Below are positions 2,094-20,118 of a stretch of 38,648 bases of DNA, in pieces (the stretch's first letter is position 1; each line of letters starts with the position of its first letter). A program made the translations under genes and the position numbers. Source of the stretch: Dehalococcoidia bacterium. Its GTDB lineage: Bacteria > Chloroflexota > Dehalococcoidia > Lucifugimonadales > UBA2985. The stretch is taken from positions 1-38,648 of the forward strand of contig JACVQK010000002.1 in the NCBI GenBank assembly GCA_015661155.1, read 5' to 3'. The notes under the pieces are model-generated. The model searched no databases and had not been told where the DNA came from. It worked only from the letters and a program-made list of their open reading frames with translations.

Positions 2094-3866
2094 CTAATCT
2101 ACATCATGAAGTCCTTTGACCTTTCCGGTCTTCACATCCACATCAACCTTTCTGAAAGCTGGGTCAGAGCCGGTTCCAGGCATCAGACTGATGTCTCCAG
2201 CGACTGGGCAGAGGAACTTGGCACCGGAGTAGATCAGGACATCACGGATGGGCAGCGTCCACCCCTTGGGGACACCCTTGAGGGCCGGATTATGGGTCAG
2301 GCTCAAATGTGTCTTGACCATCATGGTCGCATACTCGTCATACTTGGCGTCAGCCTCGAAACTCTTGGCTTTGGCCTCAGCGTCGGCAGACCAGGAGACG
2401 CCATCAGCGCCGTAGACCACCTTGGCGATCTTATCCACCCGGTCTCGCAGTTTCATCTCATTGGGATACAGGAACTGGAAGTTATTCTTCTCCTTGCAGG
2501 CGTCCTTGACGGCATCAGCCAACTCCTGAGCACCAGCGCCGCCATTCGCAAAATGGGTTGCCACGGCGCAACGCGCTCCCGCCGCCTCGGCTATCCTGCG
2601 GACTATGGCAGCCTCTTCCTTGGTATCGGTGGGGAAGCTGTTTATGCACACCACGGGGTTGATGCCAGCCGCCCTGATGGTGTTGATGTGATGGAGCATG
2701 TTGGCACACCCCTTCTCCACCAGTTCAGGGTGGGACTGCTTATAGGCCGCTGGCAAAGCAACGCCAGGCACTACTCTGGGCCCGCCACCGTGCATCTTCA
2801 GCGAACGGATGGAGACAACCAGCACCGAAACATTGGGCTTGAGGCCGCTGTAGCGGGACTTCACATTCCAGAACTTCTCAAAGCCGATGTCGGCAGCAAA
2901 TCCGCTCTCGGTGACGTGATAGTCGAACATCTTCAGCCCCAGGCGGTCAGCGATAACCGATGACTGGCCCACCGCAATGTTGGCGAAGGGTCCGGCGTGC
3001 ACCATGCAGGGCTGGTACTCAGCCGTGCTGCACAGGGTGGGGTTAATGGTGTTGCGCATCCAGGCGGTCATGGCTCCGGCCACCTCCAGGTCCGCGGGAG
3101 TAACCGGATTGCCCTGTCTATCATAGGCTACAGTGATGTTGTTCATTCTCTCCCGCAGGTCAGCCAGGTCCTTGGCGATGGACAGCATGGCCATCAGCTC
3201 GGAGCTTACCGCGATGGCGAATCTGGACTCCATGAGGAAGCCGTTCATGCGCCCGCCGTGGCCGATGGTGATGTTGCGGAGAGCCTGGGCACAGTAGTCC
3301 ATAATCCAGGCCATCTCCACCCGGTTGGGGTCCACATCCAGGCGGCGCATGTGGCTCAGCCTGAGCAACCGTTCATCATCGTAGTTGCGCTCATGCTGCA
3401 TTCTGGAGGTGAGGGCCACCATGGCCAGGTTGTGGGCGTTCATGATGTCGTTGATATCACCGGTAAGACCCATGGAGAACTCGGAATGGGGGATGAGCAC
3501 GGCGTTGCCTCCGCCAGCGGCGGTGCCCTTGACGTTCATGGTCGGGCCGCCGGAAGGCTGGCGAATGCAGCCCCCCACATTCTCACCCTGCTTGCCCAGA
3601 CCCTCGATAAGGCCCATGGTGGTGGTTGTTTTGCCTTCCCCCAGGGGCGTGGGGGTAACCGCCGTCACCTCAACATACTTGCCGTCCGGCCTGTTCTTCA
3701 GGCGCTCCATTATCTTCAGGAAATCGAGCTTGGCCACCTTCCCATAGGCAAGTATCTCATCCTTCTGCAAACCCAGCTTTTGTCGCCACTCCTCGGGGGT
3801 TGGCATGTGCTCTTCGGCTGCATCGGCAATCTGCCAGTCCGCCATTTTCGACACGTCGTAGGGCAT
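2094..3866 (-). CDS. fhs: Formate--tetrahydrofolate ligase (divergent type)
   Basis: [16 protein letters not shown]-loop, [30 protein letters not shown]-terminal [21 protein letters not shown]; start ATG 3866 with aaggaggag SD. Confidence 0.9.
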
Positions 3867-3970: not shown

Positions 3971-3998
3971 GCAGGGCAAGCCCTGCACCCACATTCAA
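3971..3998 (+). repeat. Dispersed hairpin repeat, copy 1 (GCAGGGCAAGCCCTGCACCCACATTCAA)
   Basis: 24 of 28 positions match copy 2 at 4864-4891; related partial copy at 25154-25180. Confidence 0.8.
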
Positions 3999-4014: not shown

Positions 4015-4806
4015 CTAGGTGCTTCCACCTCCCGGGGTCTCCTCCCGCTGGCTGGGAGTGATGTACTGGGGCTGCTTCTTGTAGGGCCTGAGCTTCTCCT
4101 CCACCTCCTCGTTCACCAGTAAGCCGGAGAGGTGCATCAGGGTGTCCTCCAGGCGGTCGTCGATCATTTCCCTATCCATGGCGGCCAGGCAGGGATACTG
4201 GTGGCTCAAGAGCCCTGCCCCGGGCAACGCGTCCTCCGCAGGGGTCCCCTCCAGCCTTGCGGCCATATAGTGAGTGGCACCACAGGGGGAACCCCGGACC
4301 ACCTCAATCCTCTCGATTATACCCGTCTCCGGGTTCACCGTCATGTTGAGCTTGGGCCTGCCGAAGTACCTGGCAAACTCCGATATGAGCTGGCTGGTGT
4401 ACGGTTGCGCCGCCCGCCGATAGCCGACGGCCTCCTCGGTAAGGGTGCAGAAGGTCTTGGGAAAGGCGGACTCCACCCCCATCTGCTCAAGCTCGCGCTG
4501 GAGCTGGTTCTTCAGGCCCGTGCGCATCCACGCGGAGTTGTCGATGGGGCACAGGACAGCCCTGGCTCCCGAGCGCTTGGCTATGGCTGGAATGAGCTGC
4601 GCCGATGAGGAGCTTTCGGTAAAGGCCAGAACCAGGTCTACCTGAGGCATAGTGGGAGGAAGGAACTCCTCGGGGTCATCAAGAATGATGGGGAGTCTAG
4701 CGGGTGGCCGGTAGGTCTCTATCGTCCACTCATGGGGGCCCCGGCTGCGAATGTTGTCCACAAAGCGCTGTCCCCAGAGTCCCTGTACGACGGCTAGTAT
4801 GCGCAT
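4015..4806 (-). CDS. DUF166 domain protein
   Basis: MRILAVVQGLWGQRFVDNIRSRGPHEW..., LDDPEEFLPPTMPQVDLVLAFTE, conserved Cys motifs FCTLTE, GSPCGATHYMAARL, HQYPCLAAM. Confidence 0.8.
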   Translation of the reverse strand: MRILAVVQGLWGQRFVDNIRSRGPHEWTIETYRPPARLPIILDDPEEFLPPTMPQVDLVLAFTESSSSAQLIPAIAKRSGARAVLCPIDNSAWMRTGLKNQLQRELEQMGVESAFPKTFCTLTEEAVGYRRAAQPYTSQLISEFARYFGRPKLNMTVNPETGIIERIEVVRGSPCGATHYMAARLEGTPAEDALPGAGLLSHQYPCLAAMDREMIDDRLEDTLMHLSGLLVNEEVEEKLRPYKKQPQYITPSQREETPGGGST

Positions 4807-4863
4807 TTTACTCCTCAAGAAAGCCCCGCTCCGGGGTCGCCGAAACTGGGCTGTAGTCGTTTA

Positions 4864-4891: not shown

Positions 4892-4941
4892 TCCCGACAC
4901 GTCGGGACTGCACTGGTCTGACCATCCCGACACGTCGGGAT
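4892..4941. repeat. Tandem copies of short palindrome TCCCGACACGTCGGGA
   Basis: Exact copies at 4892-4907 and 4925-4940; related copies at 6455-6470, 26739-26754 and 30691-30707. Confidence 0.8.
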
Positions 4942-5037: not shown

Positions 5038-5925
5038 CTATATCACGAGGCTGTGGCTACGGAGAGCGGGTGCGGGGTCCCGGAAATGCTTGTCGAAACC
5101 CAGCGCCCGGGGAGAGAGGCCAAAAGCCAACCCCATGAGCTCGGTGAAGTAGACAATGGGTATAGTCTTATTCTCCTGGCTGCCGTTGACCGCGTGCTCT
5201 CCCTGGTACGCATCCAGGTTGGTCTGGCAGAGAGGGCAGGCCGCCACCACCACATCTGCGCCCACCTCTCTGGCGTTGTCCAGTATCCTGGTGGTGAGCC
5301 TGGTCACCATGTCCGGCCTGGCCAGGGCTAAAGAGGCTCCGCAGCACTGGGTCTTGTACGACCAGTCCAGGGCCTCGGCACCCAGAACGGCCATCAGCCT
5401 GTCCATGGAGACAGGGTATTCGGGGTGGGCATCACGAGCGATGGCGTGAGGGCGGGTCAGCAGGCACCCGTAGTAGCAGGCCACCTTGAGTCCCGTGAGG
5501 GGCTGTGTCACCTTCTCTTTGATGGCGTCCAGGCCCACGTCCTTCACCATCACATCCAGCAGGTGGCGCACCCGCACACTGCCACCATAGCTGAGGCCCG
5601 CCTCGCTCAGAGCGGCGGCGGCCTGTGTGCGAAGGAGGGAGTCGTGGGCCAGGTGCTGGTTTGCTTTCTCCAGGGCTGCGAAGCAGCCGGAGCAGGGGGT
5701 GACCAGCTCCTGGCTGCCACTCCGCTCCGTCAGAGCCAGGTTACGTCCGGACAGGCTTATAGCCGACACCTCGTCCAGGGTCTGAAAGCAGGTGGCACCG
5801 CAGCAGTTCCAGTCCTCTAGCTCCGGAATGTCCATGCCCAGCGCACGAGCGACCTCTCGGAAGGACATGCCATAGGGCAGAGCACTGGCGGACAGGGCGC
5901 ACCCCGGGTAGAAGGCGTAGCTCAC
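5038..5925 (-). CDS. hdrB: Heterodisulfide reductase-like subunit B (two CCG domains)
   Basis: YPGCALSASA..., DWNCCGATCF, ACYYGCLLTRP, QCCGASLALARP, CPLCQTNLD. Confidence 0.92.
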   Translation of the reverse strand: MSYAFYPGCALSASALPYGMSFREVARALGMDIPELEDWNCCGATCFQTLDEVSAISLSGRNLALTERSGSQELVTPCSGCFAALEKANQHLAHDSLLRTQAAAALSEAGLSYGGSVRVRHLLDVMVKDVGLDAIKEKVTQPLTGLKVACYYGCLLTRPHAIARDAHPEYPVSMDRLMAVLGAEALDWSYKTQCCGASLALARPDMVTRLTTRILDNAREVGADVVVAACPLCQTNLDAYQGEHAVNGSQENKTIPIVYFTELMGLAFGLSPRALGFDKHFRDPAPALRSHSLVI

Positions 5926-6503
5926 GGCGACCCCTTTCGGCTGCGGGCTTTACGCAGCATGGCCCTCACCGCTTTGCCCCCCCGGTGTCTCTCTCCCAAT
6001 ATGTGCAGACGTCCCTGGCGGAAGAGCTGGAGGCCCATGGCCCTGTGCTTTAATGCCTCCCGAAGGTCCGTGGAAAGGTAGAAGCCAGCCAGCATAGGCA
6101 GCTCATGGAGGCGGCCGTAGCGCTCCACCGTTCCAGAAAACGCCCTGAGAAAGGCGGGCACAGTCGCCTGCTTGGGCATCATGCCCCGTTTCATGGCGAT
6201 TCCCTTCAGGGAGTACATCAGGTCTGTCACCGGCACGCCCTGAGGGCAGCGCGCGGCGCACAGATAGCACCCCACGCAGGTCCAGATGGCACTGCTCTCA
6301 AGCACGCGCTCTGTATTGCCAAGCTGCAACAGACGCACCACCTGGTGCGGCCTGATGTCCATGGCGTCCGCCACAGGACATCCCGCCGTGCACCGTTTGC
6401 ACTGGTAGCACAGCGCGACCTGGGCACCGTAGCGCCCCTCCATCTCCTCGGCCTCCCCGACACGTCGGGGCTGGGTCAAGAGCGAAACTTTCCCTTGTAG
6501 CAT
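5922..6503 (-). CDS. hdrC: Heterodisulfide reductase-like subunit C (2x[4Fe-4S])
   Basis: CYQCKRCTAGCPVAD and CVGCYLCAARCPQGVP; start ATG 6503; stop overlaps the hdrB start (ATGA). Confidence 0.9.
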   Translation of the reverse strand: MLQGKVSLLTQPRRVGEAEEMEGRYGAQVALCYQCKRCTAGCPVADAMDIRPHQVVRLLQLGNTERVLESSAIWTCVGCYLCAARCPQGVPVTDLMYSLKGIAMKRGMMPKQATVPAFLRAFSGTVERYGRLHELPMLAGFYLSTDLREALKHRAMGLQLFRQGRLHILGERHRGGKAVRAMLRKARSRKGSP

Positions 6504-6513
6504 GGGTGTCTTA

Positions 6514-7464
6514 TTACCTCTCCGGCGAGACGGAGGCGGCCAGGCGCATGGGCAGCGGCTTGAGGCCCGCCGTCTCCACAATCTCACCCACCGCCTCTTC
6601 CCACTCCAGGGCCATGATGTGGATTCCTGCAATCCCTTCCATCTCGCGTAGCTCCTGGATGGTCTCCACGCATATCTTGATCCCCTCTTTGCGGGCCTCG
6701 TTTCTCTCCACCCCCGCCATCCGCTGAACGACCTCCTCCGGCACATCCATCCCCGGCACCCGATCTCGCATGAACCGGGCAGCCCCCGCCGACCTGATGG
6801 GACCAACCCCTGCCAGGATGTACACCCGCTCGTGGATGCCCCTGTCCCTGACCTCCTGCATCCACTCTCTGAAGCGCTTGATGTTGAAGATGAGCTGGGT
6901 CTGGATGAAATCGGCTCCGGCGTTCACCTTCTTGGCCAGGCGGACGCTCCGGAACTGAAGGGGATGGCCAAAGGGGTTCTCCACGGCACCGACGAAGAGC
7001 CTCGGTTCAGGGTTGAGCTCCTCACCGTTCTGGAACTGCTTCTCATCCCGCATGTTCCGCACCATCTGCGTCAGCTGGAGGGAGTCCAGGTCGAACACGG
7101 GCTTGCTCTGGGGGTGGTTCCCCAGGCTGGGGTGATCGCCCGTCAGGCACAGCACGTTCTTGATGCCCATGGCTGCCGCTCCCAGCAGGTCGGACTGGAT
7201 GGCCATCCGGTTGCGGTCCCGGCACGTAACCTGGACGATGGGCTCCATCCCCTCTTGCAAGGCCATGAGGCCGCAGGCGATGCTGGCCATGCGGACAACC
7301 CCCGTGGGGTTGTCCGTGATGTTGGCCGCCAAAGCGTGGTCTCTGAGGAGCCTCGCCTTCCTTCGCACCACCTCAGCATCCACCGACTTGGGTGGGCCGA
7401 TCTCACTGGTAACGGCGAATCGCCCCTCCACCAGAGCCTGCTCCAGCTTGCTGCCCGCTTTCAT
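6514..7464 (-). CDS. metF: Methylenetetrahydrofolate reductase
   Basis: FAVTSEIGPPKS, NITDNPTGVVRMA, CLTGDHPSLGNHPQSKPVFDLDS, GADFIQTQLIFN; ORF-track upstream extension is spurious. Confidence 0.93.
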   Translation of the reverse strand: MKAGSKLEQALVEGRFAVTSEIGPPKSVDAEVVRRKARLLRDHALAANITDNPTGVVRMASIACGLMALQEGMEPIVQVTCRDRNRMAIQSDLLGAAAMGIKNVLCLTGDHPSLGNHPQSKPVFDLDSLQLTQMVRNMRDEKQFQNGEELNPEPRLFVGAVENPFGHPLQFRSVRLAKKVNAGADFIQTQLIFNIKRFREWMQEVRDRGIHERVYILAGVGPIRSAGAARFMRDRVPGMDVPEEVVQRMAGVERNEARKEGIKICVETIQELREMEGIAGIHIMALEWEEAVGEIVETAGLKPLPMRLAASVSPER

Positions 7465-8129
7465 ATCTTGAGGTCCTCCCTGACTATGCTGCGGCCACCC
7501 CGGCCCATCCCTGCGCTCCAGTCCTTGGGGGGCACTATCTCCTCCAGGGTATCGAGGAGCCCCAGCACCTCCAGCCTGTCGTAGATCAACTGCCAGCCGC
7601 AGGGGATATCCGGAGAGATCTCGCACACGCCGTCGTGGGAGCCGCCACAAGGGCCGTTGAGGAGGCTCTTGCTGCACCGGACTATGGGACACACACCCGC
7701 GAATCGACCCAGGACGCAGTCGCCACAGGCCGCGCAGCGGGCGCTCCAGACGCCCTGCTCCACGGGCATCCCCAGGAAGGAGGTGTTGAGACCCGGGTAG
7801 ACCCGCACCTTGGGAAAGCGCTCGGCGATGGCCTGCACCCCAATGCCGCAGCCCAGGGACAGCACCGCATCCACCGAGGCTATCTGCTCCGCCACCTGGT
7901 CCAGGAACTCCCACTCGCACTGGCGCTTCACCGTGGCTTCCAGGAACTCCTTCTCCTGCCCGCTGACGGCTCCGGCCATGCGCAGAGTGGAGGCCATGAC
8001 CCCCACCTCCTTCTCGCCACCGGCAAAGCACACGGTGACGCAGGTGCCACAACCCAGAATGAGCACCTTCTTGAAGGGGGATATCTGATCCCTGATCTCG
8101 TCCAGGGGTTTCTGCTCGCCCACAATCAT
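7461..8129 (-). CDS. metV: MetV-type methylenetetrahydrofolate reductase C-terminal/zinc-binding partner
   Basis: ILGCGTCVTVCFAGGEKEV, LSLGCGIGVQAIAERFP, CAACGDCVLGRFAGVCPIVRCSKSLLNGPCGGS; ATGA overlap with metF. Confidence 0.9.
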   Translation of the reverse strand: MIVGEQKPLDEIRDQISPFKKVLILGCGTCVTVCFAGGEKEVGVMASTLRMAGAVSGQEKEFLEATVKRQCEWEFLDQVAEQIASVDAVLSLGCGIGVQAIAERFPKVRVYPGLNTSFLGMPVEQGVWSARCAACGDCVLGRFAGVCPIVRCSKSLLNGPCGGSHDGVCEISPDIPCGWQLIYDRLEVLGLLDTLEEIVPPKDWSAGMGRGGRSIVREDLKI

Positions 8130-8563
8130 TTGACCACCTCCTTCTTCTGCCGGGAGACGGGAGAGGGACCCAGATTCCGGATTCGCTCAGTCATCTCGGT
8201 GGCGATCTTGGCGAAACGGGGCCCTTCCGATGAGGAGAGGTTGAACATCTCCAGACGCTCTCCGCCCACCCCGATGGACTCCAGCACCTGCTTGGCGTAT
8301 TGCACCCGGCGCTTCGCCTGTGTGTTCCCACTGATGAAGTGGCAGTTGCCCTCCAGGCAACCCGCCACCATCACGCCATCCACGCCCCCCTCGAAGGCCC
8401 GCAAGATGTGCAGCAGGTCAATGCGGCCGGTGCACATCAGCTTGATGACCAGGATGTTAGGAGGGTAGCGCAGCCTCATGGAGCCCGCCAGGTCCGCCGC
8501 GGCGGAGGCGCAGTAGTGGCAGCAGAAGGCGACTATCTGAGGCTCGAAGCCGTTGGTGCTCAT
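8126..8563 (-). CDS. mvhD: MvhD/FrhD-type hydrogenase iron-sulfur (delta) subunit
   Basis: PQIVAFCCHYCASAAADLAGSMRLRYPPNILVIKLMCTGRID, VMVAGCLEGNCHFISGN; ATGA overlaps with hdrA and metV. Confidence 0.92.
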   Translation of the reverse strand: MSTNGFEPQIVAFCCHYCASAAADLAGSMRLRYPPNILVIKLMCTGRIDLLHILRAFEGGVDGVMVAGCLEGNCHFISGNTQAKRRVQYAKQVLESIGVGGERLEMFNLSSSEGPRFAKIATEMTERIRNLGPSPVSRQKKEVVK

Positions 8564-11500
8564 CGCGCCACGCTCCCCGCGGCCATCAGCTCCACCAGCC
8601 CCTCTATCTTGGCCAGCACCTGGTCGTCCCGGTAGTGGAGCAGCTGGATGGCCTTGGCCGGACACTCGCCGACACATATCCCGCACCCCTGGCAGGCGGC
8701 GGCCTCGATGATGGCCACGCCGTCTCTGATGATGGGCACGTTGTAGGGGCAGATACGGACGCAGGTGAGACAGGCGGTGCACTTCTCCTCCTCAACACTT
8801 GCCACCACCCCACCCACCATAAGCTCATCCTGGGAGATGACCCGGCAGGCCCGGGCGGCTGCCGCCTTCCCCTGGATGATGGCCTCCTCCACAGACTTGG
8901 GGTAGTGGGCCACCCCGCAGAGGAAAGCGCCGTCCGAGGCGAAGTCCACCGGGCGCAGCTTGCTGTGAGCCTCCTGGAAGAACCCTTCCCGGCCCAGGGG
9001 CACCTTGAAAACCCTGCTCAGCTCCTCGGCCCCCGCCGAGGGCACCAGGGCGTTGGAGGAGACCAGCAGGTCGGCGGCAAGGGTGAGACGCTCCCCCAGG
9101 CTCGGCTCAGTGAAGGAGACCTCCAGCGCCTCTCCCGCAGCCTGAACCACGGGCTGGTCGTCGTCGGTGTAGCGCACGAAGATGGCCCCCGCTCGCCGGG
9201 CCTCGGTGTACATCTCCTCCCGGGCACCGTAGGTGCGGATGTCCTTGTACAGCACAACCACCTGGCAGGAGGGATTGATCTCCTTGAGCCTGAGGATGTT
9301 CTTCATGGTCACGGTGCAGCAGACCCGGCTACAGTAGAAGGGCTGCTCATCCCAGGGGCCGACGCACTGGATCACCACGATGCGCTTTGCCTGCCTCAGC
9401 CGTGGGTCGTCGCTCTTGAGGGCCTTCTCCAGGTCGCCCATGGTCACCACCCCGGGGTGCTGGCCCAGCAGGTGCTCGTCTCCCCGGTACTCCCTGCCGC
9501 CGGTGGCGATGATGGTGACACCGTGCTCCACGAGACGCTGGGTCGGGTCGCTGCGGCTGGCCACCCTGGTCTTGAAGTTGCCCACAAACCCGATGGAGCT
9601 TACCACCTGGCTATCGGTGAGAACCTCGACGTTCTGGTTGGCCTGCACCCGCTCCACCAGCTGGGACACCTGCTCGCGGCTGTCCCGCCCCGAACTCAGG
9701 GTGTCGTGCTCCAGCAGAAGACCGCCAAGCTGAGACTCCCGCTCCACCAGGACGACGGGGAATCCCTGCTCGGCCAGGGAGAGGGCCGCGGTCATACCTG
9801 CCACGCCACCGCCCACCACCAGGGCCCGGTCGCTCAGCCCCTGGGGCAGCTTGTACAGAGGCTCAAGGTGACAGGAGCGGGCCACCGCCATGGCCACCAG
9901 CTTCCTGGCCTTGTCCGTGGCCTCATCGTGGCGATCGCCGTGCACCCAGCTGCACTGGTCGCGGATGTTGGCCATCTCGTACAGGTACGGGTTCAGCCCC
10001 ACCTCCCGGACGTTCTCCTGGAACAGAGGCTCGTGGGTGCGGGGAGAGCAGCTTGCCATCACCACCCGGTTCAGGCGGTGCTCCACGATGGCCTCGCGCA
10101 TGGCCTTGAGGGAGTCCGTGGAGCAGGCGAACATGACGTGGTCGGTGTAGACCACGCCGGGGAGTTCCCTGGCCCGGCGGGCCACCTCCTCCACGTCAAC
10201 CACCCCCGCGATGTTGGACCCGCAGTGGCACACGAACACGCCCACCCGCGGCTCCTCACCAACCTGGGACATCTCCGCCGGGAACTCCTTGGGACTGACC
10301 AGGGTTCCACGGCCCGAGGCCAGGAGCCTCTGCACCTCGCCGGCGGCACCGCTGGCCTCCGTCACCGAATCGGGGATGTCCTTGGGCCCCCGGAAGGTGC
10401 CACACAGATAGACGCCCGGGCGGGACGTCTCCAGGGGCGTGGAGGGCGAGGAGTCGCCGAACCCGAAGGAGTTCAGGGCCACCCCGGTGGCCGCGGCCAG
10501 CTCAGAGACGCCCTTGGGGGCTGTCATCCCGACGGAGAGGGCCACCATATCGAACTCCTCGGTGAGGAGCTCGCCCCTCTCGTTCTCGTACTGTAGCAGC
10601 AGGCTCTTGCTGCCGGGCACCTCGGTGAGGGCGGAGGCGCGGCATCGGACGTACCGGATGCCCTCCTCCTGGGCCCGCTGGAAGTAGGCGTCAAACCCCT
10701 TGCCGAAGGCCCGCAGGTCCATGAGGAAAATGGTGAACTCCGCGCCGGGGGGCAGGTGCTCCTTGGCCAGCATCGCCTCCTTGGTGGCGTACATGCAGCA
10801 CACCGCCGAGCAGTACGGGTGCTCCTGGTCCCGAGAGCCGACGCACTGGAACCAGGCGATCTTCCGGGGCTCGACGCCATCCGAGGGGCGGAGGATGCTG
10901 CCCTGGGTGGGTCCGGCGGCGCTGAGGAGCCGCTCGAACTGGAGGCTGGTGAGGACGTTGGGATACCGCCCGAAGCCGAACTCCTCCGAGAGCCCGGCGT
11001 CGTAGATATCGCTGCCGGGGGCGAGGATGACGGCCCCCACCTCCAGCTCCATGTACTGATCCTGCTGCCCCAGGTCTATGGCCCCCAGCTCGCAGAACAT
11101 GACGCACGCCTTGCAGGTGCCGCGCTTGAAGTACATGCACAGGTCTGTGTCTATGAAGGGCACATTGGGGACAGCCTGGGCGAAGGGGGTGTAGATGGCC
11201 TTGCGCTTGCTGAGGCCCAGGTTGAACTCGCTGTCCGTCTTCCAGGGGCACTTCGCTATGCAGATGCCGCAGCCGGTGCATTTGGCCTCGTCCACGTAGC
11301 GGGCGCGTTTGCGGATGGTGGCGGTGAAGTCTCCGGCCTCCCCCGTCAGGCTCACCACGTCGGCGTTGGAGATGATCTGGATGTTGTGATGGCGTGAGCA
11401 CTCCACCAGCCGGGGCGACATGATGCACATGGCACAGTCGTTGGTGGGGAAGGTCTTATCCAGCTGGGCCATGCGCCCGCCGATCCAGGGCGACTTCTCC

Positions 11501-11628
11501 AACAGATAGACCTGGATGCCCGACTCGGCCAGGTCCAGGGCGGCCTGCATCCCCGCGATGCCACCCCCCACCACCAGGGCAGCCCCCACTACCCTGGCCC
11601 CCGTGGCCCCGTTTTGCTGCATCCTCAC
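8560..11628 (-). CDS. hdrA: HdrA-like iron-sulfur flavoprotein with tandem FAD-binding modules
   Basis: Two Rossmann motifs (VVGGGIAGMQAALDLAESG; VVGGGVAGMTAALSLAEQG), internal VGVFVCHCGSNIAG, C-terminal CTACLTCVRICPYNVP and CQGCGICVGECPAKAI. Confidence 0.92.
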   Translation of the reverse strand: MRMQQNGATGARVVGAALVVGGGIAGMQAALDLAESGIQVYLLEKSPWIGGRMAQLDKTFPTNDCAMCIMSPRLVECSRHHNIQIISNADVVSLTGEAGDFTATIRKRARYVDEAKCTGCGICIAKCPWKTDSEFNLGLSKRKAIYTPFAQAVPNVPFIDTDLCMYFKRGTCKACVMFCELGAIDLGQQDQYMELEVGAVILAPGSDIYDAGLSEEFGFGRYPNVLTSLQFERLLSAAGPTQGSILRPSDGVEPRKIAWFQCVGSRDQEHPYCSAVCCMYATKEAMLAKEHLPPGAEFTIFLMDLRAFGKGFDAYFQRAQEEGIRYVRCRASALTEVPGSKSLLLQYENERGELLTEEFDMVALSVGMTAPKGVSELAAATGVALNSFGFGDSSPSTPLETSRPGVYLCGTFRGPKDIPDSVTEASGAAGEVQRLLASGRGTLVSPKEFPAEMSQVGEEPRVGVFVCHCGSNIAGVVDVEEVARRARELPGVVYTDHVMFACSTDSLKAMREAIVEHRLNRVVMASCSPRTHEPLFQENVREVGLNPYLYEMANIRDQCSWVHGDRHDEATDKARKLVAMAVARSCHLEPLYKLPQGLSDRALVVGGGVAGMTAALSLAEQGFPVVLVERESQLGGLLLEHDTLSSGRDSREQVSQLVERVQANQNVEVLTDSQVVSSIGFVGNFKTRVASRSDPTQRLVEHGVTIIATGGREYRGDEHLLGQHPGVVTMGDLEKALKSDDPRLRQAKRIVVIQCVGPWDEQPFYCSRVCCTVTMKNILRLKEINPSCQVVVLYKDIRTYGAREEMYTEARRAGAIFVRYTDDDQPVVQAAGEALEVSFTEPSLGERLTLAADLLVSSNALVPSAGAEELSRVFKVPLGREGFFQEAHSKLRPVDFASDGAFLCGVAHYPKSVEEAIIQGKAAAARACRVISQDELMVGGVVASVEEEKCTACLTCVRICPYNVPIIRDGVAIIEAAACQGCGICVGECPAKAIQLLHYRDDQVLAKIEGLVELMAAGSVAR

Positions 11629-11664: not shown

Positions 11665-12585
11665 CTACAGCGACAGATAGGAGTGGGCGTAAATCTGGCG
11701 GTTGTACAGGATATTGATGGTTTTGGCTATGTCCCAGGTCTCCGGGTTCTCCAGCATCGAAGGCTCCACCTGAAACTCCTCGCCGGCGGCCACGGCGTCC
11801 GCCAGGGCCACGTAGAGCCGTCCCCTGGGGGTGGAGGTGTCCCGGCTCTCAACGGTCCTGATCACCCAGATCAGGTCTTTGTCCAGGGCGTTCATGATGC
11901 CCGAGGCGAGGCCCGCCCCCAGCATCATGGCTATGAACACCTGGTTGAGAAGGGGACGGTTCTCCGCGGGAATGCTGTTGGAGACGTTGGATATCCCACA
12001 GGTGGTCTTGGGAGACGGTACAGCCACCTGCTTGAAGTAGTCCACTGCCATAATCGCCTGCACGACCTGGTCCTGCATCCCGTTGACCGTCAGCACCAGG
12101 GGGTCCAGGTACAGGTTCTCCGTGGACAGCCCGTACTGCTCCGCGGCAGGAAGGATGCTGGCCATGACGATCTCCAACCTGGCCTCCGCGGTGTTGGGGA
12201 GGCCCGTGCTTCCCAGGGCCAGGGCAATGAGACTGGCGTTGTACCGGGCCGCCAGGGGCATCATGGTGCTCATGCGGGTCTCGGTGGCATCGGTGCTGTT
12301 GATGATGGGCGGGCGCTTGCACCGCTTGAGGCCGGCCTCCATGGCCGCCGCATTGGTGGTGTCCAGACAGAGGGGTACGTCCACCACATCCTGGATGGCG
12401 TCCACCAGCCAGGGCATGATCTGGTGACCCTCCCGTCTCTGGGGCCCAATGTTCAGGTCCAGAACGTCGGCGCCGTTCTCCACCTGGCTTACCGCCAGGT
12501 TCTGGAGGGTCTTACTGTCTCTTCCCTCCAGCGCAGCCTTGACCCGGGGTGAGATAACGTGGATGGACTCGCCAATCACTATCAT
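11665..12585 (-). CDS. acsE: Methyltetrahydrofolate:corrinoid/iron-sulfur protein methyltransferase
   Basis: MIVIGESIHVISPRVKAALEGRD, NGADVLDLNIGPQRREG, CLDTTNAAAMEAGL, PIINSTDAT, CGISNVSNSIP. Confidence 0.95.
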   Translation of the reverse strand: MIVIGESIHVISPRVKAALEGRDSKTLQNLAVSQVENGADVLDLNIGPQRREGHQIMPWLVDAIQDVVDVPLCLDTTNAAAMEAGLKRCKRPPIINSTDATETRMSTMMPLAARYNASLIALALGSTGLPNTAEARLEIVMASILPAAEQYGLSTENLYLDPLVLTVNGMQDQVVQAIMAVDYFKQVAVPSPKTTCGISNVSNSIPAENRPLLNQVFIAMMLGAGLASGIMNALDKDLIWVIRTVESRDTSTPRGRLYVALADAVAAGEEFQVEPSMLENPETWDIAKTINILYNRQIYAHSYLSL

Positions 12586-12600: not shown

Positions 12601-13425
12601 TTACGGTTTTTCGGCGCCTTTCCTTAACGAAGCGGAGGGTGACACCGCCTCGATTGGCTCGTCCAGCGTCACCAGCCCCAGCTCATGGGCCAGCTTCCGC
12701 ACCATCCTCTGAACCGGCGAGTCGGGTGGCAGCTCCACCATGGGACGCCCGCGGGAGTCCAGCTCCCTCACCGAGTCATCGGAGGGAATGACGGCCAGGA
12801 GCGAGAGCCCCCGGGCCAGAATCTCCTTCTCAACCGCTGGTGGAATGGCCCCCTGGACCCTGTTAAGCACCAGATATATCTGGCCCACCTGGGTGCGAAT
12901 CTCCCGGAGCAGCTCCTGGGCCCTCCCCGCCGCGGTGACCCCCCGAATGGTAGGATCGGAAACCAGCAGCAGGATATCCACATCCCTGGTGGTCTGGCGG
13001 CTGATGTGCTCCATGCCCGCCTCGTTGTCTATGACCACGTAGTCATAGGAGTCGGCTATGTGGTCGATGGCGACGCGAAGGGCGTGGTTGGCGGCGCAGT
13101 AGCACCCCGGCCCCTCGGGCCTCCCCATGGCCATCAGGTCCAGGCTCGGAGACTCCACCAGGGTCTGACGAACGCTGAAGGATATGTAGTCGTGCAAGCC
13201 CATGCCCGCGGGCCGGGTGCTGGTCTGGGAGGTCGCCGTTAGACTCTCCCGGATGTCGCCTATGGAGTCCGGCATGTCCATGCCCAGGGCCATATACAAG
13301 TTCATGCTGGGGTCGGCATCTATGGCCAGCACCGTACCCTTCCGGGTCAGCAGCTTCGCCAGTACGGCAGAGACGATGGTCTTGCCCGTGCCTCCCTTAC
13401 CAGCCACAGCTATAGTAGTGCTCAT
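12601..13425 (-). CDS. cooC: CooC/AcsF-type nickel-insertion ATPase
   Basis: IAVAGKGGTGKTIVSAVLAKLL deviant Walker A, CYCAANHALR, VVIDNEAGMEHISRQTTRDVD. Confidence 0.92.
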   Translation of the reverse strand: MSTTIAVAGKGGTGKTIVSAVLAKLLTRKGTVLAIDADPSMNLYMALGMDMPDSIGDIRESLTATSQTSTRPAGMGLHDYISFSVRQTLVESPSLDLMAMGRPEGPGCYCAANHALRVAIDHIADSYDYVVIDNEAGMEHISRQTTRDVDILLLVSDPTIRGVTAAGRAQELLREIRTQVGQIYLVLNRVQGAIPPAVEKEILARGLSLLAVIPSDDSVRELDSRGRPMVELPPDSPVQRMVRKLAHELGLVTLDEPIEAVSPSASLRKGAEKP

Positions 13426-15398
13426 CTTCCTCCTCTTTCTCCTACGGCAACAGCCTGGGTATTGTTGAGCGAAGCCTGGGCCAACACCTCCTTGACCGAA
13501 GGGAACTCATCGATGTCGGTATGGGGCAGGAAAAGGTTGGAGATGAACTCGTTCATGAAGGAGTTATCGGCCACCAGCTCCAGGTACGTCACCCTATGGG
13601 CGATCTCCTCCACCTTCCGACGCATCCGCCGGGAGATCAGGACCTGGTAGGCCCCCAGGGCCGCGGTGTTGCCCAGGAAGTGAAACTTGTCCCACGGCAG
13701 GTCGGGCAGGAGACCAACGATGATGGACTTCTCCACATTCAGATGCTGCCCGAAAGCGCCCCCGATGAGCACCGCGTCGATGTCCCTGGCGTCAATGCCC
13801 AGGCCCCGCAGCATCACCCCCACCCCCGCGTATATGGCACCCTTGGTGCGTATGAGGTTGTTGATATCCACCTCGGTGAGAAGGATGTCTTGGCCCGTGT
13901 CCGACTCCGACGCCCAGGCCAGCACATAGGCGGGGCCGTGGCTCGTGTCCACTATGCGGCGTCTCCCGCTCTCCTGGCCGCGCTGGATGGCCGTATTGAC
14001 CCTCCCCACCTTGTCCACGATGCCGGTGACGAACATCTCCGCCAGAGCCGCGAGCATCCCGGAGCCGCAGATGCCCTGGGGAGCTCCACCCCCGATGACC
14101 CGCACTTTCGGCTCCAGGGTATGGTAGTTGATGGTCACATCTTCGATGGCCCCGTTGGTTGCCCGCATGCCGCACTCCACTCCCGCCCCCTCAAAGGCGG
14201 GCCCGGCGCTACAGGCACAGGCCGCCATCCAGTCGGAGTTGCCCAGGACTATCTCACCGTTGGTGCCCACATCCATGAAGAGGGCCAACCCCTCCCGCTG
14301 GTGAAGCCTTGAGCCCAGAATGCCGGCGGTGATGTCCCCGCCCACGTAGGCTGCCACCGCGGGCACGCAGTAAACCGATGCCCTGGGGTTGACCCTGAGG
14401 CCCACCTCCGGGGCGCTCACCGCGGGAAAGCTGGTGGCCATGGGAGCATATGGCTCCTCCCGAATGGGCCTGGAGTTCATGCTGAGGAACAGGTGAATCA
14501 TGATGGTGTTGCCCGCCACCACCACGTGGTCGATGTGCTCCGGCTCCAGCTCATGCAGAGCGCACACCTCGGCAATCAGGCCGTTGATGGTCTCGCGCAC
14601 CAGCCGCTGGAGGTGCCTCACGCCATCTCCCCGCTGGCTGTACACGATCCGGGAGATCACATCCTCTCCACAGGACATCTGCCGGTTGAAGGCGCTGGCG
14701 GTATCGATGATACGGCCTGACCGAAGGTTCACCAGAACCACCTTCACCGTGGTGGTGCCGATGTCTATGGCAAGGCCCAAACTTGTGCCCACGGCGTCCC
14801 CCGGCCTGAGGGCCACCAGGCGGGAGGAGCCGCCACTGAGAGCGTGCTCTACCACGGCCGTGGCCTTCCAGCTACCCTCCACCAGGGTCTGGTGAATGCC
14901 CCGCGCCACGGAGAGGTCGATTTCCAGATTCTTGACCCCGGAAGCGCTGGCCAGGGCACGCCGCAGCCGTTCCAGGTCGGCCAGGTTGTCCTTGAGGCTG
15001 GGAGGAGGGAGCTCAAGGAGATACTGGGAGATGACGGGGTCCCGGGGAGGACGCACCCTCCGCGGCACCTTGAGGCTTGCCGTCCCGGAGACCACAAACC
15101 GCTCCCTCACCTTTTCCGGGAACAGCAGGGCGGTCACGTCCCCTCGGACCTCGGTCTGGCAAGAGAGGGCCCAGCCCAGGGCGATCTGCTGGCTGGTCAG
15201 GTGGGCGTTGGGTCTCCTCCACACCTGGCCCTTCTCAATCCGTACAAGACACCGCCCACACCTTCCCTGGCCGCCGCAGGGGATATCCGCATCTATACCC
15301 GCCTGGCGGACGGCATCCTGAAGAAGAGTGCCCTCGGGCACCATTCTCTGCCTTTTGTCTGGCAGGAGGGTAACAGTGCAACGGGAGCTGCTATTCAC
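13422..15398 (-). CDS. acsV: Corrinoid activation/regeneration protein (RACo/AcsV-like): 2Fe-2S ferredoxin plus ASKHA ATPase
   Basis: N-terminal IPCGGQGRCGRCLVRIEKG...LSCQTEV; LGLAIDIGTTTVKVVLVNLRSG; DVGTNGEIVLGN; GICGSGMLAALAEM; ATGA overlap with cooC. Confidence 0.92.
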   Translation of the reverse strand: MNSSSRCTVTLLPDKRQRMVPEGTLLQDAVRQAGIDADIPCGGQGRCGRCLVRIEKGQVWRRPNAHLTSQQIALGWALSCQTEVRGDVTALLFPEKVRERFVVSGTASLKVPRRVRPPRDPVISQYLLELPPPSLKDNLADLERLRRALASASGVKNLEIDLSVARGIHQTLVEGSWKATAVVEHALSGGSSRLVALRPGDAVGTSLGLAIDIGTTTVKVVLVNLRSGRIIDTASAFNRQMSCGEDVISRIVYSQRGDGVRHLQRLVRETINGLIAEVCALHELEPEHIDHVVVAGNTIMIHLFLSMNSRPIREEPYAPMATSFPAVSAPEVGLRVNPRASVYCVPAVAAYVGGDITAGILGSRLHQREGLALFMDVGTNGEIVLGNSDWMAACACSAGPAFEGAGVECGMRATNGAIEDVTINYHTLEPKVRVIGGGAPQGICGSGMLAALAEMFVTGIVDKVGRVNTAIQRGQESGRRRIVDTSHGPAYVLAWASESDTGQDILLTEVDINNLIRTKGAIYAGVGVMLRGLGIDARDIDAVLIGGAFGQHLNVEKSIIVGLLPDLPWDKFHFLGNTAALGAYQVLISRRMRRKVEEIAHRVTYLELVADNSFMNEFISNLFLPHTDIDEFPSVKEVLAQASLNNTQAVAVGERGGR

Positions 15399-15416: not shown

Positions 15417-16787
15417 CTATTTCTTGGCCCCCTGCAACCGGGCGGTCCAGACGTTCTTCAGATAGCCGGGGATGTCGATGCCCTCCCGCGGCCCCACCAG
15501 CACCGACCAGCCGGGCAGCTCCTCCTCAATCTCTCCGGAGAGCACCGCCACATGACCGGGGATCAACAGAAAGCGGTGGTCCACCCTGCTCCCGACCTCG
15601 TGGGTGGTGACGGTCTTGGCGATCTTCGCGCCGTCGAACTTTCCCGCAGCCCAGGAGGTGAGGACAGAGAGCCCGTCGGTGTCGCATATGACCAGCCATG
15701 CCGGCATGCCGCTGCCATCCACCTCGCCCGCCACGGAGAAGTAGGTGAGGGAGAAGTTGGTGGTGACCAGCACCGGGCTGTCCCTGCCGGGGTCTCGAAT
15801 GGGATAGACGCCGGGCTCCACCTGAATGGGCTTCTGGGGATCGGTGTAGATGTTCTGCCGCAATGTCAGCATGGGGTAGGCGTGATGGGGAGCAAAATGG
15901 TCCAGGACCACGATGCCGGCGTACTTGATGACGAGCTGGCTCGCCAGGAGGGCCTCCTCTTCGGGTGAGATGGAACCCTCCCCGGGGAAAGCTATGACAG
16001 GGTAGCCCACCAGGCGTTCCTTGGACTTGAGCGCCAGGCGGCGAATCTGGGTGAAGGTGTTCAGGGTGTTGCCGAAACCCCGGGCTCCCGGGTCCAGCAC
16101 CAGCTCCTCCACCCCCGCCTTGTTGGCCTGCTCCACCACCTCTGCCACCTGGGAGAGGCCATCGCCCTGGACTGCCAGGGGAGAGCCGTGCTTTGCCGCC
16201 AGAGCGGCCATCTGGGCCACGTTCTCCGAGTTAGCAGCGTATATCAGCGAGCGACGGCCCGCTACCTTGGACAGACCCGCCTCCATCACCCTGGGGTCTT
16301 TGGATATCAGGATGAGGGGCATTTTCGTGATGGAGCTGACCTGCTCCACGCAGGAGGCAAAGGCAGCGGGGTCGCCCTTCGCGTCGTCGATGGCTATGGC
16401 GTTGAGCCTCATGTGGATGCCGACCCGTTCCACGCTGTAGGCGTCCACCGCCGCCACCGTCGCGGCAATGGCCTCCCGGGATTGGGACGTCTTCACCCGC
16501 ACCGCCAGGGCTGTGGGGTTGTAGAAGGTCTTCTCGTGGCGGAACATGACCACCTCGTTGCCCACGGAGAAGGCCCTCTCCCCAGTGCCCACAGTGACCA
16601 GCTGGATGGGTGGACGAGCGGAAGCGTCCAGGGCCTGCTTGGACTCCTCCGAAACGTGGGGACAGGCAGAGAGCTTTATCCCCTGCTGGGACAGCTTCAT
16701 GGCAAAGGCCAGGCAGGTTGGGAAACCGCAGTCCTTGCAGTTGGTCTTGGGCAGCAGCTTGTAGATTGCAATCCCGGACAGTGCCAT
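15417..16787 (-). CDS. acsC: Corrinoid/iron-sulfur protein large subunit (ACDS gamma)
   Basis: YKLLPKTNCKDCGFPTCLAFAMKLSQQGIKLSACPH [4Fe-4S] motif followed by TIM-barrel. Confidence 0.95.
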   Translation of the reverse strand: MALSGIAIYKLLPKTNCKDCGFPTCLAFAMKLSQQGIKLSACPHVSEESKQALDASARPPIQLVTVGTGERAFSVGNEVVMFRHEKTFYNPTALAVRVKTSQSREAIAATVAAVDAYSVERVGIHMRLNAIAIDDAKGDPAAFASCVEQVSSITKMPLILISKDPRVMEAGLSKVAGRRSLIYAANSENVAQMAALAAKHGSPLAVQGDGLSQVAEVVEQANKAGVEELVLDPGARGFGNTLNTFTQIRRLALKSKERLVGYPVIAFPGEGSISPEEEALLASQLVIKYAGIVVLDHFAPHHAYPMLTLRQNIYTDPQKPIQVEPGVYPIRDPGRDSPVLVTTNFSLTYFSVAGEVDGSGMPAWLVICDTDGLSVLTSWAAGKFDGAKIAKTVTTHEVGSRVDHRFLLIPGHVAVLSGEIEEELPGWSVLVGPREGIDIPGYLKNVWTARLQGAKK

Positions 16788-16805: not shown

Positions 16806-17762
16806 TTAATAATTTGTGGCCATCAGGCTAGCAATGGCCCTCTTCACCAGCCCCACCGCTTTGGGGTGGCGCATCACCAGGATGTCAGCGCCAGCCTGTA
16901 GCTGCGCTATGGCGGTGGTTGTCTCCCATGCGATGCCGCGCCCCTCCAGGTCGCCCCACTGGGTCGGGACTCCATCCCTGGTCTTGGCCTCCTTGAAGCG
17001 CCAGCCCTCCCGGCCCGGGTTGAGAATCATGGGCATGGCGGTCATGGAATCCCCCAGGAGGGCCGCCACGCGAAGGCGCTCCATCACCGAGTAGGTGTAC
17101 TCCAGGCCATAGCCCAGAGCGCCCGTGGTGGGGTCCATGAGAATCCGGTCCCCTGGCATGTCCATGTCGGTGATGAGGATGTTCAGCTGCTTGGCCAGGT
17201 TGATGTCGATGGGAGAGTTGGCAATGACAATGTGTCCATTGGCCATGCAGGTGGCAACAATGGTGCGGTAGTTCTTGTCCTCGCACAGGCCCAGGGCCAG
17301 GCGCTTCCCAGCGAAGGCGTCGGACACCGCCACCAGCACCTCGTTGTCCTTGGCCGCTATGCCAGGGCCGTAGACGATGAGGGGCACGTCCACCGCCGCC
17401 AGCACCTTCTTGACCGCCTCCACCGCCTCGGCGGGCCCGGTGTTCCCCATGTCCGGGTCTGCGCTGCGCAGGGTCAGCGCCACCATGTCGGCCCCAGCCT
17501 CGACCGCCTTTCGCGCCCAGGCCGCCAGCCCCTCGCGCATGACGTCGCCCCAGACAGCCCCCAGCACGGGAGACCAGTTCTGGGGAGCCACGTCCTCCAC
17601 GTCGATGGCAATGGCCGGAGCATGGGGAATGACACCGTCAAAGTGCAAGAAGGGCAGTGTAGTCTCACCTCCCACCACAACCTTCTTGCGGGAGTCACCC
17701 CCCAGGGTAACCTCCCTCACCTTTCCCGCCCACTTCTCAGTGGGAACTAAAATCGCGGGCAT
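16806..17762 (-). CDS. acsD: Corrinoid/iron-sulfur protein small subunit (ACDS delta)
   Basis: KVREVTLGG...VVGGETTLPFLHFDG, GADMVALTLRSADPD, MDPTTGALGYGLEYTYSVMERLRVAAL. Confidence 0.95.
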   Translation of the reverse strand: MPAILVPTEKWAGKVREVTLGGDSRKKVVVGGETTLPFLHFDGVIPHAPAIAIDVEDVAPQNWSPVLGAVWGDVMREGLAAWARKAVEAGADMVALTLRSADPDMGNTGPAEAVEAVKKVLAAVDVPLIVYGPGIAAKDNEVLVAVSDAFAGKRLALGLCEDKNYRTIVATCMANGHIVIANSPIDINLAKQLNILITDMDMPGDRILMDPTTGALGYGLEYTYSVMERLRVAALLGDSMTAMPMILNPGREGWRFKEAKTRDGVPTQWGDLEGRGIAWETTTAIAQLQAGADILVMRHPKAVGLVKRAIASLMATNY

Positions 17763-17793: not shown

Positions 17794-20118
17794 CTAGATG
17801 AGAGACTCCATGGTGAGCGCCGGGTGCCCCACCTCCTCAAGGAAAGCCATAAGCTGCTCCACGGTGGTGGCATTTCGTCCGTCCGCGATCTTGTCTATCA
17901 GGCCGGGCTCGCCGATGCGCTGGCACGCCTCCCGAAGCTCGGACTCCATGCTCTCCTTCAGGTTGGCGGACATCCACACCACCCGCTTCAGACCACCCTC
18001 CTTGGGAATGAACTTCTTGCTCACCAGGTAATACTTGCCGTGGCCCATCATCCCTGGGCTCTGCTGGCCACCCCCGGCCACTCCCGCCAGGGTGGAGAAG
18101 GCCATTCCCGCCGGCGTCATGCCGGTGTCTTCCCGGGAGACCACCATGAACCCGTTGGCCTCTGGGATGAGCATCATGATGCACTCGAAGCAGCCGCAGG
18201 CGGTCATGGGGGCATCCATGACCGAGTAGAGGGTCAAGCGATTGAAAGTGGAGTTGGAGTGCTGATAAAGGAACTGGTTGGCGGACTCCCACTCCCCCTT
18301 CTCGGCGCTGATAAGCCCCTTCTTGGCAATGGGCTGGTTGGGCCCCGTGGGATTGAGCTCATAGGAGGCCTTGCAGTCCAGCCAGTTGTAGGCCCCGCAC
18401 AGCCCTACCCGCTCCGGGTTGATGATGCAGACGTGGCTGGGGGCGAAGGACTGGCACAGGGTGCAGCTGTAGAAGGTATCCACGGACTCGTCGGTCAAAT
18501 TAGCCGTCTTTATGTTGCGCTCGTTGTACACTCCGCGGGCCACCTCCCGGAGCTCCTCCACCTTCGCCTTGTTGGTGTATATCTTCACCTGAACCTTGTC
18601 CACAATGGCGGAGTAGTCGGCGTGGAGCTTGGCGTGGAGAATGCTGCCCAAGTGGCGCAGCCGGAAGCCGCGCTGGTAGCTCCCCTTGGCTATGCGCACC
18701 CAGGCGATATCCCGCTGCCCGATGTGCTGCACACCCTCGGCGCCGTTGATCATGTGATGTATCTGCCGCTCCAGCACCGACTCGAAGTCCTTCTGCATCT
18801 TGCGGCCCGCCACCTCCACCACTATGCCCAGGGGAACGTTGGCCCCCTCCTTGAAAGTGTCCAGGTCGGGCCCTTCCAGCTCCACACGGCCATCCTGCAC
18901 GTCCTCCGAGTCGGCCATCTTCAGGTACTCGAAGGTGATGCCTCCCTTGCCGCCGAACTCCGCCAGCATCGCGTCCCGGCGGATGATCTCCCCCTCGAAG
19001 GCGGACCCATAGGCCACGGGGATGTCCACCTGGGCCATGCGTATCTTGACCCCCCGGACCTCTATGCACCGCTCTACCAGCCGGTCGGCCCTCTCCAGGT
19101 CGTCCTTCCCCTCGATCTCGTCAAAGGGCATGCTGACCACGTGCTCGTAGGTGGTGATGCCCGTGGGCAGAATCTGAGGGATGAGGGTATCGGCTATGAC
19201 GGGGAAGCCGTAGGTTATGGCCCCCGCGGCGGTGGCGTACTTCAGGTCGTCCACCTCGCCCAGGGCCAGAACGAAGGCAAAGACCCGGTTCTTGTTGTAC
19301 AGAAGAATGTCCCGCGCCTGGCCCCCGGTCATGCCACCAAAGGTGAGAGCGGAGCGGGTGGCGAACCCCAGGGGGTAGATGGCAGAGACGGTGTCTGTGC
19401 CAAAGGGGACTGTGTAGGTATCGTACCCCAACTGCACCCCTTCTTCCAAGAGCTGATGGATGATGCTGCGTCCGTTGACGTTGCCGCAGAGGAAGATGAG
19501 GATGCCCCGCCGCTGAAGCTCCCGAACGATCCTCACAGCGACCTCGTTGGACTTGGCGCAGCCGACGATGGCGGCGAACCCGGGCATGCGCCCGTCCACC
19601 AGCTGGATTCCCCAGGTGCGAAGCTGGATGTCGTCGATGGGGCCGTTGAGAGTGTAGTGCCCGTTCGACTGGGCGGCCGCGGCTCGCCCCGCCCCTACCT
19701 CCTCATCGGGAGAGGTGAAAGCGCCGCTCACCTCCGAGGTTTGAACCTTTATGCCGTTCAGGGGCATCCGCTCGGGCTGCTCCCCCCGCACGAAGCGGAC
19801 CCCCATGATGATCTCCTCGGCGAAGAGGGTAGCCACTCCCGCATCCAGGGTCTCCCCCAGGTAGGGCAACCACAGCCGGTCCGCGGGCACCGGGGCCAGA
19901 AACGACCGGGCTTTCTCCATGATGGGCACCATATCGCCCAGGGTCTGGACCTTTGTGCCCGTATAGCCGTATATGGTGGGGAGAAAATAGGCGGTGTTGG
20001 TGAAGGCGACGGGAGTGTCAGGCCCAAGCTCCTTTATGGCCTGACTCAGCGTCTTCTCCGCCTCAAGAACGATGGCGTGGGATCCCCTGATAGCTGCGGT
20101 TGCGATGTATTTAGACAT
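17794..20118 (-). CDS. acsB: CO dehydrogenase/acetyl-CoA synthase, acetyl-CoA synthase subunit (full-length bacterial type)
   Basis: A-cluster residues CTLCQSFAPSHVCIINPERVGLCGAYNWLDC and ACGCFECI; 774 aa with N-terminal CODH-binding domain. Confidence 0.96.
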   Translation of the reverse strand: MSKYIATAAIRGSHAIVLEAEKTLSQAIKELGPDTPVAFTNTAYFLPTIYGYTGTKVQTLGDMVPIMEKARSFLAPVPADRLWLPYLGETLDAGVATLFAEEIIMGVRFVRGEQPERMPLNGIKVQTSEVSGAFTSPDEEVGAGRAAAAQSNGHYTLNGPIDDIQLRTWGIQLVDGRMPGFAAIVGCAKSNEVAVRIVRELQRRGILIFLCGNVNGRSIIHQLLEEGVQLGYDTYTVPFGTDTVSAIYPLGFATRSALTFGGMTGGQARDILLYNKNRVFAFVLALGEVDDLKYATAAGAITYGFPVIADTLIPQILPTGITTYEHVVSMPFDEIEGKDDLERADRLVERCIEVRGVKIRMAQVDIPVAYGSAFEGEIIRRDAMLAEFGGKGGITFEYLKMADSEDVQDGRVELEGPDLDTFKEGANVPLGIVVEVAGRKMQKDFESVLERQIHHMINGAEGVQHIGQRDIAWVRIAKGSYQRGFRLRHLGSILHAKLHADYSAIVDKVQVKIYTNKAKVEELREVARGVYNERNIKTANLTDESVDTFYSCTLCQSFAPSHVCIINPERVGLCGAYNWLDCKASYELNPTGPNQPIAKKGLISAEKGEWESANQFLYQHSNSTFNRLTLYSVMDAPMTACGCFECIMMLIPEANGFMVVSREDTGMTPAGMAFSTLAGVAGGGQQSPGMMGHGKYYLVSKKFIPKEGGLKRVVWMSANLKESMESELREACQRIGEPGLIDKIADGRNATTVEQLMAFLEEVGHPALTMESLI

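Follow-up and report, generated by a model that had tools for sequence, protein, structure and literature searches.

A DUF166 protein in a Dehalococcoidia Wood–Ljungdahl cluster as a candidate accessory protein of CODH/ACS

The DUF166 gene and its Wood–Ljungdahl cluster

The window, i.e., the whole stretch of 38,648 nucleotides analysed here, carries on its minus strand a 15-gene Wood–Ljungdahl (WLP) cluster that is transcribed in the order CooS, AcsB, AcsD, AcsC, RACo, CooC, AcsE, HdrA, FlpD, MetV, MetF, HdrC, HdrB, DUF166, and Fhs. The genes are as follows.

2094–3866, minus strand: fhs, formate–tetrahydrofolate ligase (probable start ATG at about 3866; PF01268, E = 1e-208; NF010032 above cut-off)
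4015–4806, minus strand: DUF166 protein, 263 aa (PF02593; alternative in-frame TTG upstream, at 4818)
5038–5925, minus strand: HdrB-like CCG protein (PF02754 in two stretches; TIGR03288, E = 4.9e-58, under its cut-off)
5922–6450, minus strand: HdrC-like 4Fe-4S protein (start approximate; Fer4_17; TIGR03290, E = 1.8e-21, under cut-off)
6514–7470, minus strand: MetF-like MTHFR (start approximate; PF02219, E = 7e-44)
7461–8129, minus strand: MetV (PF12225, E = 2.9e-38)
8126–8560, minus strand: FlpD/MvhD-like protein (start approximate; PF02662, E = 1.7e-48)
8560–11628, minus strand: HdrA-like protein, 1022 aa (NF040770, E = 2.4e-284)
11665–12585, minus strand: AcsE-like methyltransferase (PF00809; NF005719, E = 3e-74)
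12601–13425, minus strand: CooC/MinD-like ATPase (PF01656, E = 2.6e-16; the CooC label is based on fold family and operon position)
13422–15398, minus strand: RACo (PF14574, E = 4e-98)
15417–16787, minus strand: AcsC (PF03599 and PF04060)
16806–17762, minus strand: AcsD (PF03599, E = 1e-39)
17794–20118, minus strand: AcsB (PF19436, PF03598, and PF18537)
20197–22158, minus strand: CooS/AcsA Ni-CODH (PF03063, E = 5e-165; TIGR01702, 610 bits, above cut-off)

Between 4015 and 4806, the plus strand is interrupted by stop codons and an open frame exists on the minus strand only, where translation of the window yields the DUF166 protein; its ATG lies at 4806 with gaggag immediately 5' of it, and its stop codon ends at 4015. 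The initial annotation had placed the gene at exactly these coordinates and between hdrB and fhs in the same orientation, all of which is confirmed; the strand, unstated there, is minus for all three genes. The PF02593 (DUF166) model matches the protein with E = 1.6e-44 and 152.6 bits, far over the Pfam gathering cut-off of 24.4, and the match is nearly full-length, covering model positions 3–219 of 221. It is the sole DUF166 match within the 1.81-Mb genome. Profile searches with the protein returned the DUF166 and DfsP models only, with no match to a P-loop family, and neither a PDB sequence search with DUF166 nor a search of plasmid DNA yielded a match. In the DUF166 family control, a B. subtilis match was also seen, which is probably below the cut-off.

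Most other genes of the cluster overlap or lie less than 80 bases apart, while a gap of 231 bases separates DUF166 from the HdrB-like gene upstream. As this gap carries dispersed palindromic repeats, DUF166 is likely, rather than certain, to share a transcript with the genes upstream. The palindrome TCCCGACGTGTCGGGA occurs at 4892–4907, 4925–4940, 6455–6470, and 26739–26754, i.e., with two copies in the hdrB–DUF166 spacer, and gives 7 strand matches in the window versus 0.03 expected; TGTGGGTGCAGGG repeats are found at 3981, 4874, and 25163. Both are dispersed intergenic repeats.

No acsB gene was detected in the other sampled genomes of the window's family or order. Of the genomes sampled within the order, one has both acsB and a DUF166 above the cut-off and the 39 others have neither, so the WLP locus of the window was either acquired jointly by horizontal transfer or belongs to a mis-binned contig; mis-binning would leave the cross-phylum evidence presented below untouched.

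Invariant residues and predicted fold

The residues of the DUF166 protein were compared in an alignment of 94 divergent sequences, ranging from Chloroflexota relatives with 42–65% identity to the window protein to Bacillota relatives with about 30%; residue numbering starts at the upstream TTG (4818). The codons that bear on a possible metal site are the following.

4549–4551, minus strand: codon of Cys90 (LCPID), unconserved, Cys in the window protein only
4447–4449, minus strand: codon of Cys124 (FCTLTE), Cys in 94 of 94 aligned relatives
4282–4284, minus strand: codon of Cys179 (GSPCGAT), Cys in 94 of 94, followed by the invariant Gly180
4189–4191, minus strand: codon of Cys210 (YPCLA), Cys in 94 of 94
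4132–4134, minus strand: codon of His229 (DTLMH), His in 94 of 94 and in a remote DfsP-like member, predicted to begin the last helix

Besides C124, C179–G180, C210, and H229, the residues D225, P120, and F152–G153–P155 are invariant in all 94 sequences. The window protein keeps every one of them and thus shares the residue set that is common to distant members of the family; it differs from its relatives in a lone Cys at position 90, in its location between hdrB and fhs, and in an Ala that replaces the second Cys (position 181) of a CGC motif common among them. Four Cys residues had initially been described as lying in conserved-looking contexts, which holds for C124, C179, and C210 and fails for C90, the Cys of LCPID: 76 of 84 relatives have Ala at this position, and the window protein alone has Cys. 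C90 was accordingly rejected as a fourth ligand, and the putative site consists of three Cys and one His instead of four Cys. A compensating swap, in which the C90 and Ala181 of the window protein would replace the Ala90 and C181 of most relatives, is a single case and was set aside. Judging from its composition, the 3Cys-1His set is plausibly of a type that ligates metal ions or small Fe-S clusters.

The Cys and His positions recur in the C-terminal half of DfsP, a DUF166 family (seleno)protein (NF041372) that is listed in two selenoproteome reviews (PMC9312934 and PMC13188914). DfsP, with 203 positions, is the shorter of the two, and the window protein scores 68.7 bits against its model, well below the NCBIfam cut-off of 200; the nearest member found, a remote DfsP-type protein (L174), reaches 184 bits and keeps the three Cys and H229 while having lost D225. 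None of the DUF166 matches found contains an in-frame stop that could represent a selenocysteine codon. A match that ends at the C124 codon (in genome G772) was considered as a selenocysteine site and discarded, the sequence being merely cut by the contig end.

Confident AlphaFold models were obtained for the DUF166 proteins of the window (pLDDT 86.8, pTM 0.84) and of locus L112 (pLDDT 93.4, pTM 0.90). In the models, C179 directly precedes a helix and H229 opens the last one. The protein would consist of an alpha/beta N-terminal part and a C-terminal part presenting C124, C179, C210, and H229. Fold searches with the two models against the PDB, and additionally against viral models, gave no match at E ≤ 0.001; KaiC/Rossmann fold matches with TM of about 0.2–0.33 are uninterpretable.

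Co-occurrence, gene neighbourhoods, and fusions with CooS

Among 301 Chloroflexota genomes, DUF166 exceeds the cut-off in six, all of different families, and acsB is present in each of these six in comparison with 43 of the 301 overall (Fisher p = 6e-6); in a Bacillota phylum, 15 of 16 DUF166 genomes hold acsB versus 90 of 300 overall (p = 7e-8), with the reservation that both tests treat genomes as independent and thus overstate significance, above all for the Bacillota set, in which about half of the hits belong to one clade. Of 50 genomes tested in which DUF166 lies outside a WLP cluster, 44 have acsB elsewhere; CooS was found in two of the remaining six, which leaves four exceptions without either gene by these searches. 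DUF166 is thus nested within acsB genomes in two phyla and is in the main confined to genomes with CODH/ACS, and the suspected WLP association survives the survey. The dependence is one-way: 37 of the 43 Chloroflexota genomes with acsB have no DUF166, and CODH/ACS therefore has no general need of it.

A similar pattern is seen in archaea. We take COG1810 to be the DUF166 family, and, to our knowledge, Methanosphaera stadtmanae is without CODH/ACS. A survey from 2007 recorded COG1810 (MMP0976) and CdhB (MMP0984) both in methanogens and A. fulgidus, and both as absent from M. stadtmanae (PMC1852104). DUF166 therefore shares its archaeal pattern of presence and absence with CdhB, the CODH epsilon subunit (PF02552), which is also its neighbour in L112; CdhB is, however, a structural subunit of a Pfam family unrelated to DUF166.

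The neighbourhoods of 80 relatives were fetched and their genes called with a simple codon-usage script, so that neighbours scored as absent may have been missed. Even though many contigs are short, WLP genes are present at 18 of the 80 loci; the other 62, some of them on short contigs, are not beside WLP genes. Several arrangements recur. DUF166 opens the series DUF166–Fhs–HMA–CooS–AcsB–AcsD–AcsC–RACo (e.g., L059, L074, and L101), follows Fhs in Fhs–DUF166–HMA–CooS (L122 and L126, with an extra gene intervening in L126), and closes AcsB–AcsD–AcsC–RACo–AcsE–CooC–CooC–DUF166 (L062, L076, L085, L096, and L107), where the L076 and L096 clusters additionally hold MetV–MetF. It adjoins CooC in these last five loci as well as in L116, L104, and G772, and in L112 it is flanked by cdhA and cdhB within CdhA–DUF166–CdhB–CdhC–CdhE. 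Five Bacillota genomes share the acetogen-type cluster CooS–CooC–Fhs–DUF166–FchA–FolD–MetV–MetF–Lpd–CooC–AcsD–AcsC–AcsE–AcsB, the labels FchA, FolD, and Lpd being confirmed with Pfam in one of them. Several copies thus adjoin fhs and not CODH itself.

In three related genomes (G307, G391, and G569; loci L128, L157, and L167), DUF166 and CooS form a single protein of 908–932 aa, with DUF166 at the N-terminus and a complete Ni-CODH catalytic subunit behind it. The CooS half of the L128 fusion scores 711–713 bits with TIGR01702, whose cut-off is 478, and its alignment to the CooS of the window shows that the HGH, CCTGNE, QC, GCNN, and TGCAAG motifs are kept. The fusion gene ends an AcsE–CdhD–CdhA–CdhB–CdhC–CdhE operon, with the CdhA and CdhB labels confirmed in L128. 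The fused copies bear an extra FCTGCTDCTEC insert (CxxCxxCxxC), which is absent from most members, including the window protein. Not every DUF166 copy is encoded with or fused to CODH; the three fusions and many operons are. As a separate observation, these loci (L128:1646–12668, L157, and L167) place an archaeal-type CdhA–CdhB–CdhC–CdhE operon, ending in DUF166–CooS, in Bacillota that additionally possess an acsB of the bacterial type; in G391, both sets adjoin.

On a tree of the 94 sequences, the WLP-linked state requires at least seven changes, and the deepest branches on either side of the midpoint are WLP-linked. The recurrence of DUF166 inside WLP clusters on several separate branches bears out the association that had been proposed from the window alone.

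In nine distinct WLP clusters from Chloroflexota, counted from ten loci of which one place was fetched twice (L061:5333–5668, L101:12774–13112, L059, L063, L074, L088, L114, L122, and L126), the gene directly before cooS encodes a protein of about 111 aa with an HMA fold (PF00403, E = 1.3e-7). It has His-His (ADHHV) in place of the metallochaperone CxxC and, from its sequence, is a candidate CODH metallochaperone; the window itself holds no gene for it.

Possible roles in relation to CODH/ACS

That DUF166 belongs with CODH/ACS is well supported. The partners to which it is fused, or beside which it lies within operons, are CooS, CdhA/B/C/E, and CooC, and this assignment is therefore preferred over pterin, corrinoid, or Hdr-MetFV metabolism. 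From the window, a role in C1/corrinoid or Fe-S metabolism had been suggested, of which metal or Fe-S handling is plausible in view of the invariant 3Cys-1His set, and the corrinoid part is not sustained, the partners being CODH/ACS proteins. MeaB and B12-radical-SAM neighbours of close Dehalococcoidia relatives were considered as a corrinoid link and dismissed, as they belong to one clade and are mixed with unrelated genes. The pterin-linked redox step and the tie to MetFV-Hdr that had likewise been put forward find no support: no pterin or folate genes lie around the CooS-fused and cdh-type copies, and HdrABC-MetFV adjoins DUF166 essentially in the window alone, for which reason this partnership was rejected.

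We see about an even chance that DUF166 is a dedicated accessory protein of CODH/ACS, whose 3Cys-1His site would hold a metal or cluster and which would help to build, activate, or repair the active site of the enzyme or to protect it. Among the roles considered, this one is the best fit, given that DUF166 has the catalytic subunit and the nickel-insertion ATPase as partners and that many species possess the enzyme without DUF166, as holds for CooT and CooJ. CooC, CooT, and CooJ are nickel accessory proteins, optional in CODH operons as DUF166 is; CooT and CooJ have Cys/His-rich metal sites (PMC6006190), and CooC often adjoins DUF166. None of the three is homologous in sequence to DUF166, which is larger and also occurs fused to CooS. 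Several CODH-operon proteins are of unclear function, and the dependence on CooC is not universal among CODHs (PMC6006190). We postulate that C124, C179, C210, and H229 may be the ligands of a metal ion, either Ni or Fe, or of a small Fe-S cluster, that DUF166 would dock on the Ni-CODH subunit, or on the CdhA/AcsB complex, also where it is a separate protein, and that, together with the CooC ATPase, it might serve to assemble the Ni-Fe-S active site, to activate it, or to repair it.

The main rival to assembly, activation, or repair is a redox role, in which the 3Cys-1His site would carry an Fe-S cluster, or a redox-active thiol or selenol, that exchanges electrons with CODH, and the CxxCxxCxxC insert of the fused forms would represent a second cluster. 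The position of DUF166 at the CooS N-terminus, beside the CooS Fe-S motifs, the insert itself, and the annotation of the sister family DfsP as a (seleno)protein are consistent with it. However, most members, the window protein among them, have no such insert, three Cys and one His are sparse for a low-potential ferredoxin-like carrier, and CODH is normally served by separate ferredoxins, so that we regard this role as rather unlikely.

A sensor or regulator of the WLP that responds to CO, redox state, or metal, as opposed to a maturation factor, is improbable. It would account for an N-terminal extension of about 120 aa in one Anaerolineae clade that resembles a NarL-type receiver, for the LuxR-type response regulator directly upstream of DUF166 in L040, and for another sub-clade that adjoins DUF438-hemerythrin-PAS proteins; yet the receiver likeness is by eye, Pfam finding no receiver domain in the extension, a DNA-binding domain is absent, the link to regulators is limited to one clade, and the fusion partner is the enzyme itself. 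The extended proteins occur in L040 (9291–10412, the locus in which the upstream gene was checked), L059, L060, L061, L063, L074, L088, L094, and L101, and the receiver-like part is without the phospho-Asp.

Still less probable is a part for DUF166 in the folate (methyl) branch, as an enzyme or as a helper acting with Fhs. The adjacency of fhs in the window, in the L059–L101 clade, in L122 and L126, and in the acetogen-type cluster points in this direction, but no fhs was detected next to the CooS-fused, cdhA–cdhB, and CooC-linked copies, CODH is also near in the other fhs-linked clusters, and methanogens use tetrahydromethanopterin. Furthermore, the acetogen-type cluster misses no folate step, since FchA and FolD are both present. 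Finally, a mere passenger, brought beside CODH/ACS by chance or by a mis-binned contig, would agree with the otherwise acsB- and DUF166-free order of the window and with the 62 of 80 copies outside WLP clusters, and is highly improbable given that fusions occur in three genomes, that adjacency recurs on separate branches, that DUF166 depends strongly on acsB in two phyla, and that both DUF166 and CdhB are missing from one archaeon.

Returning to assembly and activation, we tentatively extend the proposal, at a lower probability than that of the accessory role as such, to an unrecognised and ancient CODH/ACS assembly or activation factor common to methanogens, Archaeoglobus, acetogens, and Chloroflexota. 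Its fold would be without a PDB counterpart, its metal site would be of the 3Cys-1His type, partly a selenol in DfsP, and it would act beside CooC and, in certain lineages, as the N-terminal domain of CODH itself. No report of a link between DUF166 and CODH was found in the literature searched, in which the family is named only in the two selenoproteome reviews cited above, and the main text of a synteny analysis from 2026, which covered 1351 CODH operons, makes no mention of DUF166. The building of the metal clusters of CODH and ACS is still poorly understood. The tracking of CODH/ACS by DUF166 across phyla, together with the invariant metal-type site and the fusions, turns a family of unknown function into the subject of a specific test and makes DUF166 a candidate to be co-expressed with recombinant CODH/ACS.

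Most Anaerolineae copies of DUF166 lie outside WLP clusters. Among 102 close same-strand neighbours, the sole frequent type is a DUF438-hemerythrin-PAS protein (11–13 cases), and these cases fall within a single part of the tree. DUF438-hemerythrin-PAS proteins are plausible sensors of iron, O2, or NO, and one may speculate that such neighbours agree with a role of DUF166 in protection or repair. DUF166 paralogues beside these proteins were noted in L041, L056, L066, L067, L075, L078, L082, L084, L090, L091, L093, L111, L115, and L117, in some cases with a COX1-family oxidase gene nearby. In addition, short ORFs of about 245–310 aa that match the CdhC domain of AcsB were observed in G311 (on the L052 contig), G316, G318, G306, and G519, where they come beside another acsB match in the same genomes.
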